34,160 nt of DNA from Pirellulales bacterium (GTDB lineage Bacteria > Planctomycetota > Planctomycetia > Pirellulales > JADZDJ01). The notes below the pieces were generated by a model. That model was not told where the DNA came from, did not search any database, and worked only from the letters and a program-made list of their open reading frames with translations. Where the stretch lies: the NCBI GenBank assembly GCA_035499655.1, contig DATJYL010000066.1:1-34160 (forward strand). Reading direction: 5' to 3'. Positions 864 to 21,589 of the stretch are shown piece after piece. Position 1 is the first letter of the stretch; every line of letters starts with the position of its first letter. The position numbers and the translations under genes are program-made.

Positions 864-1610
864 ATGTCTTCCGAAAAAGCCACTGCGCTGGTGCTGAAAG
901 TGGTCGAATTCAGCGAGACCAGCGCGGTCGTGACAGCATTCACCCGTGAATTTGGCAAAATACAGGCTTTGGCTAAGGGTGCGCGCAGGCCGAAAGGCCC
1001 GTTCGAATCCTCCCTTGACCTATTGGCCCTGTGTCGCATAGTGTTCCTCCGCAAATCGTCCGAGGCACTCGACCTGCTGACAGAAGCCAAACTGGAGCGG
1101 CGATTCCGTCCGCCTGGCAGTAACTTGTCGTGTCTGTACGCAGGTTATTACGTTGCCGAATTGCTGAGCGAATTAACCGACGACTACGATCCCCATCCGG
1201 CGCTGTTCGATCTGGCGGAGCAAACTCTGCTGGCGTTGTCGCGGGGTGAAGCGGTATCGAACGTGGTTTTGCGCTGGGAGCTGGCGGCGCTAAACGTGCT
1301 GGGACATTTGCCGTCGTTGGAAACCTGCGTTGAATGCGGCGCGGCGGTTCGCGGGACAGATCGAGTTGCGTTCGGTTTGCTGGCCGGCGGCGTTTTGTGC
1401 CAGAAGTGTCGGACCGGCAAGCGACAGGTGGTTACGGTGCACGGTGGAACCGTCCAGGCGATGGCGCGGCTGGCCGATTTGCAAACGGAAAGTTGGAAAC
1501 AATTGGAGTTGGATGCCCGCACCCGCGGCGAGTTGCGCGGGCTGATGAACAACTACCTGGCGCATTTGCTGGGGCACCGACCGCGCATGCACAAATACCT
1601 GACGGCGTGA
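864..1610 (+). CDS. recO: DNA repair protein RecO
   Basis: RecO (248 aa) is the RecFOR mediator that displaces SSB and loads RecA at gaps. It has the N-terminal OB-fold (ALVLKVVEFSETSAVVTAFTREFGKIQALAKGARRPKG in overlapping pieces) and a helical C-terminal part with a four-cysteine zinc site, C155-x2-C158 and C179-x2-C182, as in zinc-type RecO. The length is normal for the family. I chose the ATG at 864 because the OB-fold starts right after it; an in-frame ATG at 810 would add 18 residues with no family resemblance. The stop TGA at 1608-1610 runs directly into a degenerate AATGACG repeat. No recF or recR is seen nearby. Confidence 0.9.
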   Translation: MSSEKATALVLKVVEFSETSAVVTAFTREFGKIQALAKGARRPKGPFESSLDLLALCRIVFLRKSSEALDLLTEAKLERRFRPPGSNLSCLYAGYYVAELLSELTDDYDPHPALFDLAEQTLLALSRGEAVSNVVLRWELAALNVLGHLPSLETCVECGAAVRGTDRVAFGLLAGGVLCQKCRTGKRQVVTVHGGTVQAMARLADLQTESWKQLELDARTRGELRGLMNNYLAHLLGHRPRMHKYLTA

Positions 1611-13983: not shown

Positions 13984-14022
13984 AAATAGCCGTTATTCCC
14001 CGATTTATCGCAGGAGGACATT

Positions 14023-15414
14023 TTGCTGATCGAACAAGCCATTTTCACTTTCGCCAAAACCGATCATGCGGCCGGTTATCAACTTTTGGCCCGCAGCCCG
14101 GGCGTCACCGACCGTCAGGCGCGCGAATTGGCCGTGTGGGGGCCATCGCACGATGCGTTGAACACCGACCGAGACGAAGCGTCGAGCGTGAATTTTCATT
14201 CCCTACCGTGCGGAACTTACTGCGTATCGAAAACCGTGGCCACGGGGCAGGAGCACAACGGCTGGGGCGGAGCAGATGTGTATACCCAATTTCTGCTCGT
14301 GCCTTCCGCTGTGCTGGCCCGGTTTGCGAATAACCCGTTTGCCGTGTTGCGGGCGGCTTGGGCCAAAGGCGTGTTGGCAGTGCACGAACAGCCGCCATCG
14401 GTGTTGGAGCCGTTCACGCTGGCGGGGCGGTCGGCAACCGTCGACGAAGGTTTGCTCGCGCAATTTGCCGATCAATGGGGACCGCAAGGCGTGGCCCGAT
14501 TGATTGCCGCGGCCCTACGGCCGGGCATCCAATTGTTAGCCGGCGCCCAACATTGTGAAACGTTGATCGGGGGGCTGCTGCAATGCTTTCCGGTGGAATG
14601 CCGGGGCGAATTGACGTTCACCACCGGGTTACGTTTTTCGCCCCGGCGTCCGTTTCGATTGTCTCCGCTTTCCAGTGACGGCGCCGAGCAGCGCCGGGCC
14701 TTACGACACGAAGGGGTCACGCTGGTTGATCTTTCCCGTTGCGACATGGCCGATGCGGAACCGCGCGGATGGGCGGCCTACGTGGCAGAAGCCATCCGTG
14801 GCGATCGACTAGCGCGGCTAATCAGCGTATTGCAGCAACCGCGCCCCAATTTGCGCCTGGACGATTTGAACGCGCTTGGAGAACAGTTGCTGGAAGAATT
14901 GTACTCCGAACCGGCGATTGTCGCTGTCCATTCCGAACAACCCGCCCCGCAGCCTGCCGCGCGATCGGCATCCGGAACGGAGCGGCTGTTTCGCACCGAT
15001 CGACCGCGAAATCCAAAACCTGCGGAGCCAATTTCCAATCTACATCTTTCGGATGCGCATCCAGCCCAATTCAATTCTCGCGAAGCGGAGCGGCATTCAG
15101 CTGGCATAAGTTTTGGCGGGTCGGAAGCAAAAATACCCACCGTGGCCGATCCCGCCGCTGTCGAACTGCTGGAACAACTTGACGATGCCGTGTACGAAGC
15201 CGTCAACGGAGTTGCCGGGGCGGTCAATCATGCTTCCCGGCTATGGGCGCAGCTTACGCAGCTTCTTCCCCCGGCGACGCAGGCAGCCTTGCGCGAACAA
15301 TACTTGCACTACGCCTTTACGCTGTGGAACACTTCGCATGAAGAAGGCGTTCGCAATGCCGACAAAGCGATCGGGGTCCTCGAAGTTCTGGCCGTGCTAT
15401 TTAAGCCGGAATGA
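14023..15414 (+). CDS. GAP1-N2-like (GTPase-associated protein 1) protein
   Basis: This is a 463-aa soluble protein. The N-terminal half (residues 1-160) resembles the GAP1-N2 domain seen in bacterial GTPase-associated systems: IEQAIFTFAK, GYQLLARSPGVTDRQARELA, then VNFHSLPCGTYCVSKTVATG and a GWGGADVYTQFLLVP strand. The middle (about 160-290) has a helical part; from about 295 a Pro/Ser/Arg-rich linker leads to a helical C-terminus. The start is TTG 14023: AGGAGG at 14011-14016 is correctly placed and no ATG is near. It follows the coiled-coil gene at 40 nt. No GTPase, FHA or kinase gene is adjacent, unlike many GAP1 loci. The assignment is from remembered motif pattern only. Confidence 0.5.
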   Translation: MLIEQAIFTFAKTDHAAGYQLLARSPGVTDRQARELAVWGPSHDALNTDRDEASSVNFHSLPCGTYCVSKTVATGQEHNGWGGADVYTQFLLVPSAVLARFANNPFAVLRAAWAKGVLAVHEQPPSVLEPFTLAGRSATVDEGLLAQFADQWGPQGVARLIAAALRPGIQLLAGAQHCETLIGGLLQCFPVECRGELTFTTGLRFSPRRPFRLSPLSSDGAEQRRALRHEGVTLVDLSRCDMADAEPRGWAAYVAEAIRGDRLARLISVLQQPRPNLRLDDLNALGEQLLEELYSEPAIVAVHSEQPAPQPAARSASGTERLFRTDRPRNPKPAEPISNLHLSDAHPAQFNSREAERHSAGISFGGSEAKIPTVADPAAVELLEQLDDAVYEAVNGVAGAVNHASRLWAQLTQLLPPATQAALREQYLHYAFTLWNTSHEEGVRNADKAIGVLEVLAVLFKPE

Positions 15415-15528
15415 CGGAGAATGACCCATGACCAAGCCGAAACGACCAAAGATTTGCGGCTGTACACTCCGTTCTCGATTGTGCATTGGGATTTGCTGGG
15501 CCACTGCGTGTGGTCATTGGTCATTTCC
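15410..15528. repeat. Word-pair inverted repeat (AATGACC / GGTCATT) at a convergent gene end
   Basis: The left arm 15410-15435 has three AATGAC words and the right arm 15509-15528 has GGTCATTGGTCATTTCC. The stop codon of the GAP1-like gene (15412-15414) lies in the left arm and that of carA (15514-15516, minus) in the right arm. Confidence 0.65.
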
Positions 15529-16698
15529 ATCGAGCATCAACTGCTTGAAGTGCGCGAACAAGTACGCGCTGTCGTGCGGCCCGGCCGAGGCTTCCGGATG
15601 ATACTGCACGCAAAAAGCCGGCAGCGTGCGGTGTCGTAAGCCTTCGATGGTGTGGTCGTTCAAATTGCGGTGGGTGATTTCCAACTCGGCGGGCAAAGTG
15701 TCTTCGGCGACGGCAAAGCCGTGGTTTTGCGAAGTGATTTCCACCTTGCCAGTCTCCAAGTTCTGCACCGGCTGGTTGGCCCCGCGATGGCCGAATTTGA
15801 GCTTGAAGGTTTTGGCCCCGCACGCCAGCGACAACAACTGATGCCCCAAGCAAATGCCAAACACCGGCACGCGCCCCAACACGCCGCGAATGGTGCTGAT
15901 GGCGTAGTCCAATGGTTCCGGGTCGCCGGGACCGTTCGACAAAAACACGCCGGCCGGCTTGTGGGCCAGCACATCGTCGGCCGTGGCTGTTCCGGGCAAT
16001 ACGGTAACACGGCAACCCATGTCGGCCAAATGCCGCAGGATGTTCCACTTCATCCCATAATCGAGCGCCACCACGTGCAAATCGGCGGTTGCTAAAGCGG
16101 CGGCCCCGGCTTTGGATGCCGACGGCCCATGACTATGGCCGTTTGATCCGCCGTTGCAATGCAATCGGGCGAGCTCGTGGAGTTTTTCGTTCCAGGTGCG
16201 CGGTTGATCGGGAATCACTTCGCGCACTAAATCGCGCCCGACCAGGCCCGGGCTGGCTTTGGCTTTGGCTACCAGGCGGGCGTCGTCCAAATCGCGGCTG
16301 GACAATACCCCCTTCATCGCCCCGCTGCTTCGCAGCCGCCGGACCAACGCGCGGGTGTCGATTTCCGCAATCCCGGGAATTCCGTGCCGCTCCAAGTATT
16401 CGTGCAGCCGGCCAACCGAGCGAAAATTGCTTTCCCGCCGGCTCCACTGGCGAACAATAAAGCCCGCCAATTGTGGATTTGGGCTTTCCACATCTTCCGG
16501 ATTGACCCCGTAATTGCCGATTTCGGGGTACGTCATGCAGACAATTTGCCCGCGGTAACTGGGGTCGGTCAAAATTTCCTGGTAGCCGGTCATCGAGGTG
16601 TTAAAACAGACCTCGCCATCGACTTCGCCGGCCGCGCCAAACGCAGTGCCGGTAAAAACGGCGCCGTCTTCCAGAGCTAATTTTGCAATTTGGGGCAT
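15514..16698 (-). CDS. carA: Carbamoyl-phosphate synthase small (glutaminase) subunit
   Basis: CarA (394 aa) hydrolyses glutamine and channels ammonia to the large subunit CarB for arginine and pyrimidine synthesis. The N-terminal CPSase domain opens with LALEDGAVFTGTAFGAAGEVDGEVCFNTSMTGYQEILTDPSYRGQIV (seen in pieces). The C-terminal class I amidotransferase has the nucleophile elbow PVFGICLGHQLLSLA, the oxyanion segment GVFLSNGPGDPEPL, SQNHGFAV, and the catalytic His-Glu in QYHPEASAGPHDSAYLF. A short Ser/Gly/His-rich stretch (SNGHSHGPSASKAG) in the interdomain linker is unusual. carB is not in the window. The last residues (LDGNDQ) are encoded by a repeat arm. Confidence 0.95.
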   Translation of the reverse strand: MPQIAKLALEDGAVFTGTAFGAAGEVDGEVCFNTSMTGYQEILTDPSYRGQIVCMTYPEIGNYGVNPEDVESPNPQLAGFIVRQWSRRESNFRSVGRLHEYLERHGIPGIAEIDTRALVRRLRSSGAMKGVLSSRDLDDARLVAKAKASPGLVGRDLVREVIPDQPRTWNEKLHELARLHCNGGSNGHSHGPSASKAGAAALATADLHVVALDYGMKWNILRHLADMGCRVTVLPGTATADDVLAHKPAGVFLSNGPGDPEPLDYAISTIRGVLGRVPVFGICLGHQLLSLACGAKTFKLKFGHRGANQPVQNLETGKVEITSQNHGFAVAEDTLPAELEITHRNLNDHTIEGLRHRTLPAFCVQYHPEASAGPHDSAYLFAHFKQLMLDGNDQ

Positions 16699-16863
16699 CG
16701 TTCAATGTTCAATTCAAGTTGCAGCCGACTGGTTGCAATCGCGAAATGTTTTCGCGGTTTTCAGCATTCGAATTTAGCTGTCGCCATTTCGTGTCGTCAT
16801 TCGTCATTCCGTCGCTGCCGGTTGGTCAGATTGTGCGACTCACGCGGGCGTCCGCAAGGCCCC

Positions 16864-16993
16864 TTAAAGTCTGATAGCACGCTGGCCCGATACGCTTTCT
16901 ACGGCTGTGGGTCTCCAGTTCTGGATGCGAATTCAGAATTGGACAGCCAATTTGGAGGGTTCTTGTCCCGGCGAGCAAGAACCCTCTTTTTTT
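16864..16993 (+). ncRNA. Candidate small RNA with two hairpins, second one a terminator
   Basis: The first stem pairs GGCTGT (16903-16908) and CCAGTTCTG (16915-16923) with CAGAATTGG and ACAGCC (16934-16948). That gives about 15 bp with one mismatch, a 6-nt bulge and a 10-nt loop. The second is an 11-bp perfect terminator stem followed by seven T. Both are on the plus strand although the flanking genes (carA and a methyltransferase) are on the minus strand, so the unit does not end either of them. The 5' end is a guess; a weak TTAAAG/GATACG pair is the best promoter I can offer. It matches no RNA family I know by eye. Confidence 0.4.
16955..16993 (+). terminator. Orphan intrinsic terminator on the plus strand
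   Basis: GAGGGTTCTTG (16955-16965) pairs perfectly with CAAGAACCCTC (16976-16986) across a 10-nt loop. The T-tract runs 16987-16993. No plus-strand protein gene lies upstream within 1.4 kb. Confidence 0.85.
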
Positions 16994-17030
16994 GCGCACA
17001 TTAGCCATGCCAGAGCACGGCCGCAGCACA

Positions 17031-17963
17031 TTATAAAGCAGCGGGCGCGGAAATTACAGATGCAGCCAAGTCGGCCGCATTTCCACTGAGAACGATGGGA
17101 TTGAGCGTGGTCGTTTTCGATTGCGGGACTGCTTCGCGCTGCAAAATCGCGATCAGACTCACGCCGCGGCGATAACCGGCCGATGCGCCGTCAATCGCCC
17201 CGATCAGCCGCCGCCGTTCCCCGGCAAAGCACGCTTCCAAAGCCGAATTGATGGGCGGCGCGGGCAACGTAAAATCGGTATTCGCGGCGCCCGAAGTTCG
17301 GCCGCGCCAACGGTTCATCGCTCGAATTCCGCGAATTAGCGGATATAGCCGGCTATTGAAGTGCGACAACAATCGCGGATTCACTGGCAGGCCGGTCCAC
17401 ACGGCAGCCAAACTTTGTGCGTCGTAACGCCGATAATGGCCAAACGCCTCGTCATGCGGGCTCCACAGCCGCATGTCGGCCGGCACGGTAATTAAAATTT
17501 GAGCACCGGGCGGGCAGGCGTCGACAATGCTGGCCAACAAGTCGCGATCGTCGGCCACGTGTTCCAGCACGTCGGTCAACATTACGACCGCCGCTCGGTT
17601 CAACCTGTGCTTCACATCCTGTGGAGCAAATCCGCAAACGAAGGTGACGCCCAGAAATCGCTGGCGGGCCAGCTCGACAGCCTCAGCCGAGGTGTCGACT
17701 CCCAGGCAGCGATATTCGTCGGCCAAAGCCGCCAAATTCGCCCCGGTGCCGCAGCCGATGTCGACGACCATCGGGCGAGATTCGATGGCTTTGACGGCCT
17801 CTCCCATCGTCAGCCGGCGATGCAGCCGCCACCGGTCATCCAATGGACTCGATCCTGGCGGTGCAATTTTGCGAATCACGTCGCGCAAAATCCGCCGTCG
17901 GGCGACAAACCACCAATGCCGCTGTTCAATCTGCGCATGAAGTTGAAATTGTTCCGACTGCAT
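17031..17963 (-). CDS. Class I SAM-dependent methyltransferase
   Basis: A 310-aa protein with a Rossmann-type methyltransferase core. Motif I is VVDIGCGTGANLAALADEY (about residues 72-90), motif II is the acidic LGVDTSAEAVELAR, and motif IV is VVMLTDVLEHVADDRDLL, the DxLEH pattern of the type 11/12 family. The start EQFQLHAQIEQRHWWFVARRRIL is typical of planctomycete and cyanobacterial methyltransferases that begin with a HWWF motif. The substrate is unknown. The C-terminal part is rich in Arg and Pro. I chose ATG 17963; TTG 17969 is in frame. It starts 13 nt after the aminotransferase stop, so the two should form one operon. Confidence 0.85.
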   Translation of the reverse strand: MQSEQFQLHAQIEQRHWWFVARRRILRDVIRKIAPPGSSPLDDRWRLHRRLTMGEAVKAIESRPMVVDIGCGTGANLAALADEYRCLGVDTSAEAVELARQRFLGVTFVCGFAPQDVKHRLNRAAVVMLTDVLEHVADDRDLLASIVDACPPGAQILITVPADMRLWSPHDEAFGHYRRYDAQSLAAVWTGLPVNPRLLSHFNSRLYPLIRGIRAMNRWRGRTSGAANTDFTLPAPPINSALEACFAGERRRLIGAIDGASAGYRRGVSLIAILQREAVPQSKTTTLNPIVLSGNAADLAASVISAPAAL

Positions 17964-17976
17964 GCACAAGTGTAGG

Positions 17977-19278
17977 TTACGTCTGCGCCGGCGTCTGACG
18001 GCCTACATTTCTGGTCGAAGCGGCAGGGCCGTTGTTTTTCGGCTCGCTACCCAAGCAGCGCGCGATATTCCGCACCGCTTGACGGATGCGGTTTTCGTTT
18101 TCGATGAGCGCCATGCGCACGTAACCCTCACCGGCCGGGCCAAAACCAGCCCCGGGGCTTACGACCACGTCGGCTTCTTCCAGCAGCTTCATGGCAAAAT
18201 CCAGCGAGCCCATTTTCGCCCAGGGCTCCGGAATTTTCGCCCACAGGAACATGCTGGCTCGCGGCGGCGTCACATTCCAGCCGATGCGATTCAACCCGTC
18301 GCACAGCACGTCGCGCCGGAGTTGATATTCCTTGGCTTGCGCCTCCACGGCCGATTCGCAATGCCGCAGCGCCATGATGGCGGCAATTTGCATGGGCCGG
18401 AACATGCCGTAATCGTAATAGGCCTTGATCGTGCCCAAGGCCCGCACAATTTCCGCGTTGCCAGCGCAAAATCCGATTCGCCAGCCGGCCATGCTAAAGC
18501 CCTTGCTCATGGTCGTGAATTCCACGGCCACGTCTTTGGCGCCCGGCACCGCCAGCAGACTGGGAGCTTGATAACCGTCGAAGCACACGTCGGCGTAGGC
18601 CAAATCGCTGATCAAAATGAAGCCATATTTGCGGGCCAGCTTGACCGCCTCGACGTAAAAGGGCGGATCGACCGTCACGGTGGACGGATTGTGCGGATAG
18701 TTCAAAATCACCATTTTCGGACGCGGCTCGATGTGCTGGCAAATGTAGGCCACGTTCGAAAGGAACTTTTCGCTGTCGGCCACTTCCAGCGTAATGGCGT
18801 TGCCAGAAGCCAGCGACACGGCGTACATGTGGGCCGGATACGTGGGGGCCGGCACAATGGCGGTATCGCCCGGGCCAATCAGGGCCAGGCACAAATGGCT
18901 GAAGCCCTCCTTGGAACCCAGGGTCACAATTACTTCGCTTTCCGGGTCCAGCCGCACGCCCCACTTTTTTAAGTAGCGGCTGGCGACTTCGCGCCGCAAT
19001 TGCATGATGCCCAGCGACGGGCTGTAGCCGTGGTTCTTGGGATCGTGGGCCGCTTCGGCCAACTTGTCGATGATCAAATCGGCCGGCGGATCGGTGGGAT
19101 TGCCCATTCCCATGTCGATGACGTCGTCGCCGGCGCGGCGCTTCTGGTACATCAGTTGATTCAGCCGGGCGAACAAATAAGCGGGCAAGCGCTTCATCCG
19201 TTCGGCCAGTTGAATTTGGAAGGGTCGCAGATCGTCAACCGGTTCGGGTTTATCTTCGGAATTGGTCATAGACATCAT
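17977..19278 (-). CDS. Class I/II aminotransferase, AlaC / LL-DAP aminotransferase type
   Basis: A 433-aa PLP enzyme of fold type I. Hallmarks: [22 protein letters not shown] at the N-terminal side, [41 protein letters not shown], the [13 protein letters not shown] asparagine motif, [13 protein letters not shown], and the PLP lysine K259 in [15 protein letters not shown], with [17 protein letters not shown] near the end. This pattern is that of the alanine-synthesising AlaC subgroup (pyruvate/glutamate), close to LL-diaminopimelate aminotransferases; the substrate cannot be settled by eye. The start ATG 19278 has in-frame ATGs 19275 and 19269 just after. It heads the unit with the methyltransferase. 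Confidence 0.9.
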
Positions 19279-19435
19279 GCGGCGCCCCTGGCGAGTTTCA
19301 TTGTGGGGCCCGATCTGGCAAATATTTGGCCAAGAAGCCCTACCTCAAGAATAGCCGCGCATTGGCACGGCGAAAAGAGACGCGCCGTTCGACGTAGGTT
19401 CGGGCAACTTTCCGCGACCTTGAGGATTAAACCGA

Positions 19436-21589
19436 TTATCGCTGCACGGCAGAGCCGGCTCGCGGCTGATCGGCGTCAGATTGCGATGCGGAATCCGACC
19501 GTGCGCTGGAAGGCGAAGCAGTCTGCGTGGACGGCGGGTTTCGCGGCAAAAGGCCCGTCGTTTCGTAGGCGGCCGGCACGGTGGCGGAATCGATCATCGT
19601 GCGATCGATGGGGCCATTGGAACCTGGTCCCGTCGACGAGAGGGCGCGGGCGCCCGCTTTCGCCTCGTTCCGCTGCGGCGATTGCGAGGTTCCGGCCAGG
19701 TAATTGTCGATGCGGGCTTCCTCCTTAAGACGATCGAATTCGCCCGTCATTTTCAGCCGCATCTTCTTTTCGTGCACGTCTTCGTAAATCAGATTCTTCA
19801 CCTCGTCTTTGCTGACCTGGACCGACTTGGTGAATCCTTCCATGTACATAATGACAAACTTATCGCCCACTTGAACGATGCCTGAAATCTCTCCGGGCTT
19901 CAACTTGAAGGCTTCTTTCTCCAGTTCCGGTTGGCCGCTGAATTGGCGGATGGGAGGCACGCGGCCTTCGTTGGCGCGGCTGGCCGGTTCGATGGAATAC
20001 TGCTCCGCCAGCTTGCCGAAGAAATCGACCGATGGATTGTCGCGGGCCTTTTGCCACACTTCCTGGGCCCGACGCTGGGTGTCGAGCACGATGGCCCGCA
20101 CTTGCGCTTTGGAGCCGTAATTCGATTTGTAACCCCGTTCAATGTCTTCATCGGTCACGGGCACGTCGCCGGCGATGAGCTTGAGCGCGGCGCTGGGCCA
20201 CACGGCGTCGTGCAGGTATTTATCCATGGGCATGCCCTCGTCGGTGATCATTTTCAGCCAGGCGTCGACGTCGGGTTTGCCGTCCCGTTTCAATTTGCCG
20301 GCCGCCAGGGCCGCCCGGGCAACTTCCGCGTCGAGTTCTTGCTGAGTGACCGTCATGTGTTTTCGCTTGAGTTCTTGCTCCAGCAGTTTGCGATGGATCA
20401 TGACTTCCAAAACTTGCTCGCCGTGGCGGTCGATGCACGCCTCGGACAGCTCGCGGATGGTAATCGCTTTGCCGTTGATGGTGGCGGCCACGCCGGGCAT
20501 TTGCGCCCGCTTGACCGGATCGTTGTACACGTTGACCACCTGCGATTCGTCCTGCAACTTTTTGAACACTTCGGCGGCGACGGTGCGCAGCTTGCGATCG
20601 CGCACAAATTCCTCCAACCGGCCGCGAACCTGCTCCTTTTGGAAGCCCGAGGGCTCGGTTTGCCCTTCGCATTTGAGGATCACAAATTGGTTATGCACTG
20701 GAACCACCGGCGAAATGTCTCCCTCCTTCATTCCGAAGGCCGCTTTTTCCACGTTGGGGTCGCCAATGTGGCGGCGAATCGGTTGGATCAATCCGCCCAG
20801 GCTGGCGCTGTTCCCGTCGATGCTGTACTTGCGGGCCAGCATTTCAAAATCGCCGGGGTTCGCGGCGGCCTTGGCCTGCACGTCACGCGCTTTGTCGGCA
20901 TTGTCGAGCACGATGATCCGGGCTTTCACGGCCACGCCGAATTCGGCGTCGTAGGCATCGTCGAGTTCCTGCGGCGTGGGCTGAATGCGTTCCGCCGCCA
21001 GGCGGCGTAGCGCCAGCGTCGGCAGAATAATATCGTCGGCGTATTGCTGCGCGTTGATGCCCCGCTCTTGCTTCAGCATTTGCAGCCATTGATCGACCGG
21101 AATGGAAAACTGCTTGGCCATGCGGGCAATTTCCTCGTCGACATCTTGCTTCGTGACCTTGATTCCTTGTTTATCGCAATAGGTGAGAATCAGATATTTA
21201 TTCATCACCGTTTCTAGCACGTCCTTGCCGAACTGGGCCAGGCATTCCTGAGCCAATTCCTGGCGATGAATTTCCTCGCCGTTGACCACGGCCACCGTTT
21301 GCTGCTGCGACGACGTGGCATTGTTGCTTTGCACCGTCCCCGGATTGCCCGGCGCGGGCGCGGAACCATGTGCCGAGGAGTTGCCGCTGGGTGATGCGGC
21401 ATCGGCGGCGCGCGATCCTAAATTGATGCTGCTGCGTCCCGGGGTTTGCGCGCCGGCCTGTTCACGCCCGCCAATGGCGCGAATCGCCACGCAAATCGCC
21501 ACGACGCCAATGGCGCCGGCCAGCGGCAAAAAACGACGTTTCCACTTTCCCCGGCCGAGCGGCTCGGGGGATGCATCCATGCTAGTCAT
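19436..21589 (-). CDS. Double-parvulin peptidyl-prolyl isomerase (SurA/PrsA-like), membrane anchored
   Basis: A 717-aa protein for folding of exported proteins (inference). After a short cytoplasmic tail a single membrane segment (about residues 17-37, FLPLAGAIGVVAICVAIRAIGG in part) is followed by a low-complexity Ser/Gly/Asn linker. Two copies of the same module follow: a SurA-type N-domain (VNGEEIHRQELAQECLAQFG; INGKAITIRELSEACIDRHG) and a parvulin core (ARIIVLDNADKARDVQAKAA ... GGLIQPIRRHIGDPNVEKAAF; VRAIVLDTQRRAQEVWQKAR ... GRVPPIRQFSGQPELEKEAF). Both parvulins depart from the consensus: the usual SGG is SASLGG and RANEGR. I placed the start at ATG 21589 (GGAG about 8 nt upstream); an in-frame start at 21709 lacks family features. 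The C-terminal tail is Ser/Ala/Gln-rich. Confidence 0.85.
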   Translation of the reverse strand: MTSMDASPEPLGRGKWKRRFLPLAGAIGVVAICVAIRAIGGREQAGAQTPGRSSINLGSRAADAASPSGNSSAHGSAPAPGNPGTVQSNNATSSQQQTVAVVNGEEIHRQELAQECLAQFGKDVLETVMNKYLILTYCDKQGIKVTKQDVDEEIARMAKQFSIPVDQWLQMLKQERGINAQQYADDIILPTLALRRLAAERIQPTPQELDDAYDAEFGVAVKARIIVLDNADKARDVQAKAAANPGDFEMLARKYSIDGNSASLGGLIQPIRRHIGDPNVEKAAFGMKEGDISPVVPVHNQFVILKCEGQTEPSGFQKEQVRGRLEEFVRDRKLRTVAAEVFKKLQDESQVVNVYNDPVKRAQMPGVAATINGKAITIRELSEACIDRHGEQVLEVMIHRKLLEQELKRKHMTVTQQELDAEVARAALAAGKLKRDGKPDVDAWLKMITDEGMPMDKYLHDAVWPSAALKLIAGDVPVTDEDIERGYKSNYGSKAQVRAIVLDTQRRAQEVWQKARDNPSVDFFGKLAEQYSIEPASRANEGRVPPIRQFSGQPELEKEAFKLKPGEISGIVQVGDKFVIMYMEGFTKSVQVSKDEVKNLIYEDVHEKKMRLKMTGEFDRLKEEARIDNYLAGTSQSPQRNEAKAGARALSSTGPGSNGPIDRTMIDSATVPAAYETTGLLPRNPPSTQTASPSSARSDSASQSDADQPRAGSAVQR

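Follow-up and report, generated by a model that had tools for sequence, protein, structure and literature searches.

A segment of about 93 nt on the plus strand, divergent from carA, is almost certainly a genuine RNA gene, as judged from comparison of related genomes with the analysed stretch of DNA (a 34,160-nucleotide contig of a Pirellulales bacterium, further called the window). The original prediction had read this intergenic segment as a short independent plus-strand transcript, and this reading is now supported by promoter-like boxes, covarying hairpins, a terminator, the strand bias of G-U pairs and the lack of a conserved reading frame. Taken as a whole, the statement that the product is a trans-acting, Hfq-independent regulatory RNA of a new family, transcribed on its own and with a dose tied to carA, seems to us rather probable. 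Conservation, strand, fold, terminator and linkage are read from the sequences, and from these we infer transcription and its start, action in trans, the partners and the role.

Architecture of the locus

The following features were distinguished within the locus:

15514-16698, minus strand: carA, carbamoyl-phosphate synthase small subunit (TIGR01368, 485.7 bits; PF00988; PF00117)
16865-16870, plus strand: -35-like box TAAAGT (in relatives, 17 or 18 nt separate an AAAG-type box from CGATA)
16887-16892, plus strand: -10-like box CCGATA (CGATA at the same place in relatives)
16901-16993, plus strand: predicted small RNA, ~93 nt (covariance model match at 16902-16995; fold z -5.19)
16903-16948, plus strand: hairpin 1, with a GGCUG/CAGCC base stem, a one-sided bulge, a covarying upper stem and an apical part that differs among copies in both length and sequence
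16908-16913, plus strand: one-sided, nearly invariant bulge UGGGUC (GGCTGTGGGYC in 91 of the 92 distinct loci, i.e., all but L064)
16955-16986, plus strand: terminator hairpin (11 Watson-Crick pairs here; two-sided changes in 12 of 12 helix pairs of the 52-sequence alignment)
16969-16975, plus strand: terminator loop CGGCGAG (CGGCGA in 92 of 92 distinct loci; invariant in both lineages)
16987-16993, plus strand: T tract (at least four T in 90 of the 92 distinct loci)

The terminator pointed out in the original prediction was found as described, i.e., GAGGGTTCTTG (16955-16965) pairs with CAAGAACCCTC (16976-16986) in 11 perfect base pairs followed by seven T, and G-U stands at each end of this stem (16955-16965/16976-16986). 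The bulged stem noted upstream of it corresponds to the hairpin at 16903-16948, with its one-sided bulge of six bases. The strands were also assigned correctly: the terminator is on the plus strand, and both carA (15514-16698) and the methyltransferase gene (17031-17969) are on the minus strand. The start at 16864 has to be corrected, as it falls outside the RNA; positions 16865-16892 hold the promoter-like boxes. The 5' end given here was placed from the -10-like box and the point at which conservation starts, and the 3' end from the T tract. Of the two genes between which the element had been located, carA is a constant partner, whereas the methyltransferase gene is an incidental neighbour.

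Distribution among planctomycete genomes

A 181-base stretch of the locus matched DNA of 36 out of 57 genomes of the order, its own included. This search gave 38 places, 30 of which were taken as loci, and 29 of these loci entered the alignment A1 (L027 was omitted, having the same sequence as L026), on which the covariance model R1 was built. With R1 (E <= 0.001, strict filters), the RNA was found in 127 of the 296 sampled genomes of the order, always with one match per genome except for G102, which has two, and the remaining 169 gave no match under the same filters. A pattern scan of named genomes indicated 77 stretches, 73 of which were confirmed by R1 (67 bits or more), and all of these are planctomycete by their titles (Pirellulaceae, Pirellulales, Mariniblastus, Planctomycetaceae and similar names); the four unconfirmed ones come from Oligoflexia, Treponema, Hyphomonadaceae and Streptomyces records.

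Within the samples of the phylum, R1 matched 8 of 294 genomes (4 from the order) and the model R2 matched 14 of 392 (11 from the order). One match outside the order was strong (G352), and of the 13 genomes in its family, f67, 10 carry the RNA; in the order to which f67 belongs, the RNA is present in 10 of 148 genomes, all of them f67. The other matches outside the order (27-34 bits) look like chance ones. Another 22 genomes, from a sister family within the class and from further lineages, were examined at one carA locus each, and none gave a convincing copy (best score 18.9 bits).

L065, L066 and L067 were dropped as chance matches (29-34 bits, with no core sequence, no boxes and no carA within 1500 nt), and so were three loci with a pattern match but no model match (L069, L114 and L123) and one with 22.6 bits (L124). 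L064 (34.6 bits), which has the boxes and carA but a different bulge sequence, was kept. Identical cores were counted once (L029/L061 and L106/L126) and L063, of f67, was left out, which gave 92 distinct loci. Their sources are genomes of the order together with named records that are planctomycete by title. For the alignment A3, 52 rows were picked by hand for diversity from the loci then known.

Twenty genomes of the order without an R1 match were checked at carA, and in 19 of them the carA start was readable. In one the RNA is cut by the contig end (L145), in another a possible partial copy lies at the contig end (L147, recognised by eye only), the third has a degenerate copy with 16.9 bits (L162), and in the remaining 16 nothing recognisable was found beside carA. 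The RNA is therefore dispensable in evolution, or was replaced. The degenerate copy (G007, 1217-1312, minus strand, upstream of carA) reads, by eye, GGCTGTGGATGC and has a strong terminator hairpin; the RNA family may thus decay or change in some lineages. In family f21 (L169-L174, L179, L180 and L186), visual inspection showed an ArsR-type-like convergent gene in the place of the RNA upstream of carA, with a strong hairpin between this gene and carA.

Secondary structure, covariation and coding strand

A terminator consensus alone proves little, since terminator-like sites within 14000-20000 were no commoner than expected by chance (6 versus a shuffle mean of 8.8), and therefore the weight has to come from comparison. 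Conservation ruled out a terminator arisen by chance. The segment 16901-16995 (95 nt) folds with -45.6 kcal/mol (z -5.19), and none of 200 shuffles was as good. Two-sided changes that keep the pair were found in 12 of 23 pairs in the 29-sequence alignment and in 17 of 23 pairs in the alignment of 52 sequences from both lineages, where 97.7% of the cells are paired. None of 500 shuffles was as good on any measure, a result whose significance is overstated, as the sequences are related; the slid controls, which preserve this relatedness, were lower on every measure. A lack of conservation of the stems, for which a covariation analysis had been proposed, was one of the two outcomes that would have refuted the original prediction; both stems are kept and covary across relatives.

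Particular parts of the structure vary in different ways. The five pairs of the GGCUG/CAGCC base stem are constant in the 52 sequences, in spite of free covariation in the upper and terminator stems, and the letters invariant in all 52 rows are GGCUGUGGG with a C two places on, CAGCC, and CGGCGA of the terminator loop. A base stem kept constant where other stems covary suggests sequence-specific recognition of the helix and its bulge, and the two could then serve to bind a protein or a small molecule, as a receptor and not as a pairing seed. We consider this unlikely, as there is no known receptor of such a shape among the Rfam families, and the terminator loop, which looks like a pairing site, is equally invariant. 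On visual inspection, a pseudoknot between GGG of the bulge and CCC of the terminator loop was discarded, since the bulge is conserved and the CCC is not.

The helices contain 116 G-U cells versus 8 A-C cells, which fixes the plus strand. A small coding ORF was considered and rejected: the frame opened by the invariant GTG stops at many lengths or never, and the apical part occurs in all lengths modulo 3. When frames were compared across the copies, no conserved reading frame was found in the RNA. The element is thus a conserved, covarying and non-coding structure followed by an intrinsic terminator on the same strand (as read from sequence and conservation), and these are features expected of an independently transcribed bacterial small RNA.

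Promoter-like boxes

CGATA is present just upstream of the RNA in 83 of the 92 distinct loci, and both boxes, with the AAAG-type one 17 or 18 nt above CGATA, in 71. In 1900 shuffled upstream sequences CGATA occurred 26 times and in 95 reverse-complement controls twice, and both boxes together occurred in none of either set (0/1900 and 0/95). The boxes are therefore likely to act as the promoter of the RNA. The exact promoter pattern was not enriched elsewhere in 12 genomes, where 24 matches comprised 10 at this RNA and 14 others, against 14 in the reversed control; for the exact form, a wider regulon under this motif was thus rejected in these genomes.

The consensus of sigma28 (FliA) promoters is TAAAGTTT-N11-GCCGATAA. 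The AAAG and CGATA boxes of the RNA resemble it, although they are spaced by 17-18 nt and those of the consensus by 16. A FliA_WhiG-type sigma factor was found above the cut-off in 51 of 54 genomes. In these genomes (G000, i.e., the genome of the window, and its relatives) there are 6 to 25 FliA_WhiG matches per genome at E <= 0.001, most of them below the curated cut-off, which points to many sigma-like proteins.

Linkage to carA and other neighbours

Outside f67, carA is divergent and upstream of the RNA in all 88 distinct loci that could be tested (L095, L097, L134 and L143 being too short upstream), and the distance from its codon 1 to the RNA ranges from 41 to 413 nt, with a median of 158 (outside f67; extrapolated from tblastn). 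At three loci (L026, L018 and L038) the gap between the RNA and the carA start is about 40-70 nt, which implies that the two promoters are very close or overlapping. In L026 (G032) and L018 (G022) the tblastn positions give about 40-60 nt between the carA start and the 5' end of the RNA, and here the carA promoter probably overlaps that of the RNA or sits inside the RNA gene.

Other neighbours turn over, and the linkage of carA and the RNA is therefore not a mere effect of slow rearrangement. Beyond the 3' end of carA, the largest gene family occurs in only 5 of 28 loci; in the window, the plus-strand gene at this place (14023-15414) matches GAP1-N2 (GTPase-associated protein 1, PF20013, 45.3 bits). 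Downstream of the terminator the commonest family, an aminotransferase like that encoded at 17977-19278, was found in about 29-30 of 88 loci. As it is convergent with the RNA in 28 loci and codirectional in 2, the RNA is as a rule not a leader of the aminotransferase gene.

The ten copies of f67 are different: carA is divergent in four, has no match within 1.5 kb in five, and one locus is too short to test. In four of the five loci without carA, recO lies nearby (L191-L193 by the Pfam profile, and L190, whose product is 83.5% identical to RecO of L191). With these five copies, an action on carA in cis only is unlikely. The bulge and the terminator loop are no more complementary to the region of the carA start than shuffles are (mean z 0.15 and -0.13, respectively, over 90 loci), and this, together with the copies away from carA, favours action in trans.

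Two other explanations of the linkage were considered. The element could be a cis-acting leader or attenuator of carA, transcribed from the minus strand, and its position upstream of carA in every testable locus outside f67 would fit it. The T tract and the promoter-like boxes are on the plus strand, though, the excess of G-U over A-C cells is the opposite of what is expected for a minus-strand RNA, and five copies in f67 lie away from carA; this explanation, rejected on the G-U and A-C counts, is in our opinion very improbable. The RNA could also be a feedback regulator, pairing with or otherwise controlling the divergent carA mRNA, like CarZ in Vibrio cholerae. Such a role would agree with the linkage itself (88 of 88 loci outside f67 and four of nine inside, where other neighbours reach only 5/28 and 29/88) and with the carA starts close to the RNA in L026, L018 and L038. 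As the complementarity of the bulge and the loop to the carA start does not exceed that of shuffles, and the RNA is retained in five f67 loci without a nearby carA, we regard feedback on carA as quite unlikely.

Proposed mode of action and its significance

In the trans-acting reading preferred here, RNA polymerase would start at ~16901, using a promoter that belongs to the RNA itself (the AAAG and CGATA boxes, 17-18 nt apart); it would move away from carA and release a transcript of about 93 nt at the intrinsic terminator. The folded RNA would expose two fixed sequences, the bulge UGGGUC(U) and the terminator loop CGGCGAG, and one or both of them would meet partner mRNAs or a protein, in trans and without Hfq. 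The divergent coupling to carA suggests that the RNA output would be tied to the supply of carbamoyl phosphate (for pyrimidines and arginine). An Hfq-dependent sRNA calls for Hfq in its host, and Hfq (PF17209) was detected in none of 30 genomes, including that of the window, although the control search was positive in 5 of 14 known genomes.

A bolder proposal, improbable in our view, is that this is an ancient Hfq-independent RNA of Planctomycetota, whose invariant bulged helix would serve as the receptor of either a protein or some carbamoyl-phosphate pathway metabolite (e.g., glutamine, carbamoyl phosphate or UMP), sensing the nitrogen/pyrimidine state and broadcasting it via the terminator loop. 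If this were true, one free-standing RNA of 93 nt would both sense the nitrogen/pyrimidine state and signal it to other genes.

Few small RNAs of planctomycetes have been described; for the PVC group as a whole, a table of a 2022 review gives 8 annotated sRNAs (PMC9029176). The candidate presented here is well supported and genetically simple, with one copy, a fixed address by carA, invariant letters to mutate and hosts that appear to lack Hfq. It offers a handle on post-transcriptional control in planctomycetes and on how carbamoyl-phosphate synthesis may connect with other genes.

Comparison with known RNAs

No Rfam 15 family matched over the RNA at the gathering score, either in the window or at the loci of six relatives. 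In a permissive search of the window, the best score was 14.8 bits (mir-4782), and this match, as well as BjrC68 (13.7 bits), was taken as chance, being far below the cut-off. Open-access papers, without their supplements, were searched for small RNAs of planctomycetes, for RNAs linked with carA and for the core letters, and none of the matches listed showed a description of this RNA; the main text of PMC11109978, in a text search, mentions neither planctomycetes nor carA. The RNA thus appears to represent a new family as far as Rfam 15 is concerned, and outside Rfam it may be identical with the Rhodopirellula-1 motif. In a published table row (PMC2864571), this motif is reported from Planctomycetes, like our RNA, but the row also names Proteobacteria and gives no Rfam number.

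6S RNA (RF00013) is similarly a single-copy independent RNA. Pirellula staleyi and Rhodopirellula baltica are reported to lack it (PMC5673643, citing another paper), and another RNA could then have taken its place. That the RNA is a diverged 6S is nevertheless scarcely credible: it differs in length, being about half of the 187-position 6S model, in fold and in locus. Neither the window nor its own genome (G000) has an RF00013 match, the Rfam gathering cut-off not being reached in either, and the RNA coexists with an RF00013-like match in four genomes (G003, G011, G020 and G051, of which only G011 is over the cut-off). Among 54 genomes of the order, 6S exceeded the gathering score in two (L231, G011:C95:5993-6185, 57 bits; L232, G041:C11:1562-1767, 48.1 bits), and four further genomes have matches below it.

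Two RNAs are, like this one, associated with carA. CarZ of V. cholerae (PMC7398697) is a small RNA also tied by gene order to carA/carAB; RNase E releases it from the carAB 3' UTR, and it binds Hfq and base-pairs to the 5' UTR of carA. In contrast, the RNA described here does not, by its position, derive from a carAB 3' UTR, shows no excess pairing with the carA start, comes from hosts in which Hfq was not found, and has promoter-like boxes of its own, divergent upstream of carA. The carA motif of Betaproteobacteria (PMC8632094) is likewise a conserved RNA structure adjoining carA; it was described, mostly from Polynucleobacter, as an extended imperfect hairpin that immediately precedes the carA RBS and has little covariation support, and was proposed to be a cis riboswitch. 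A riboswitch of this type is part of the carA leader and shares the strand of the gene, whereas the planctomycete RNA occupies the opposite strand, ends at a terminator and covaries strongly.
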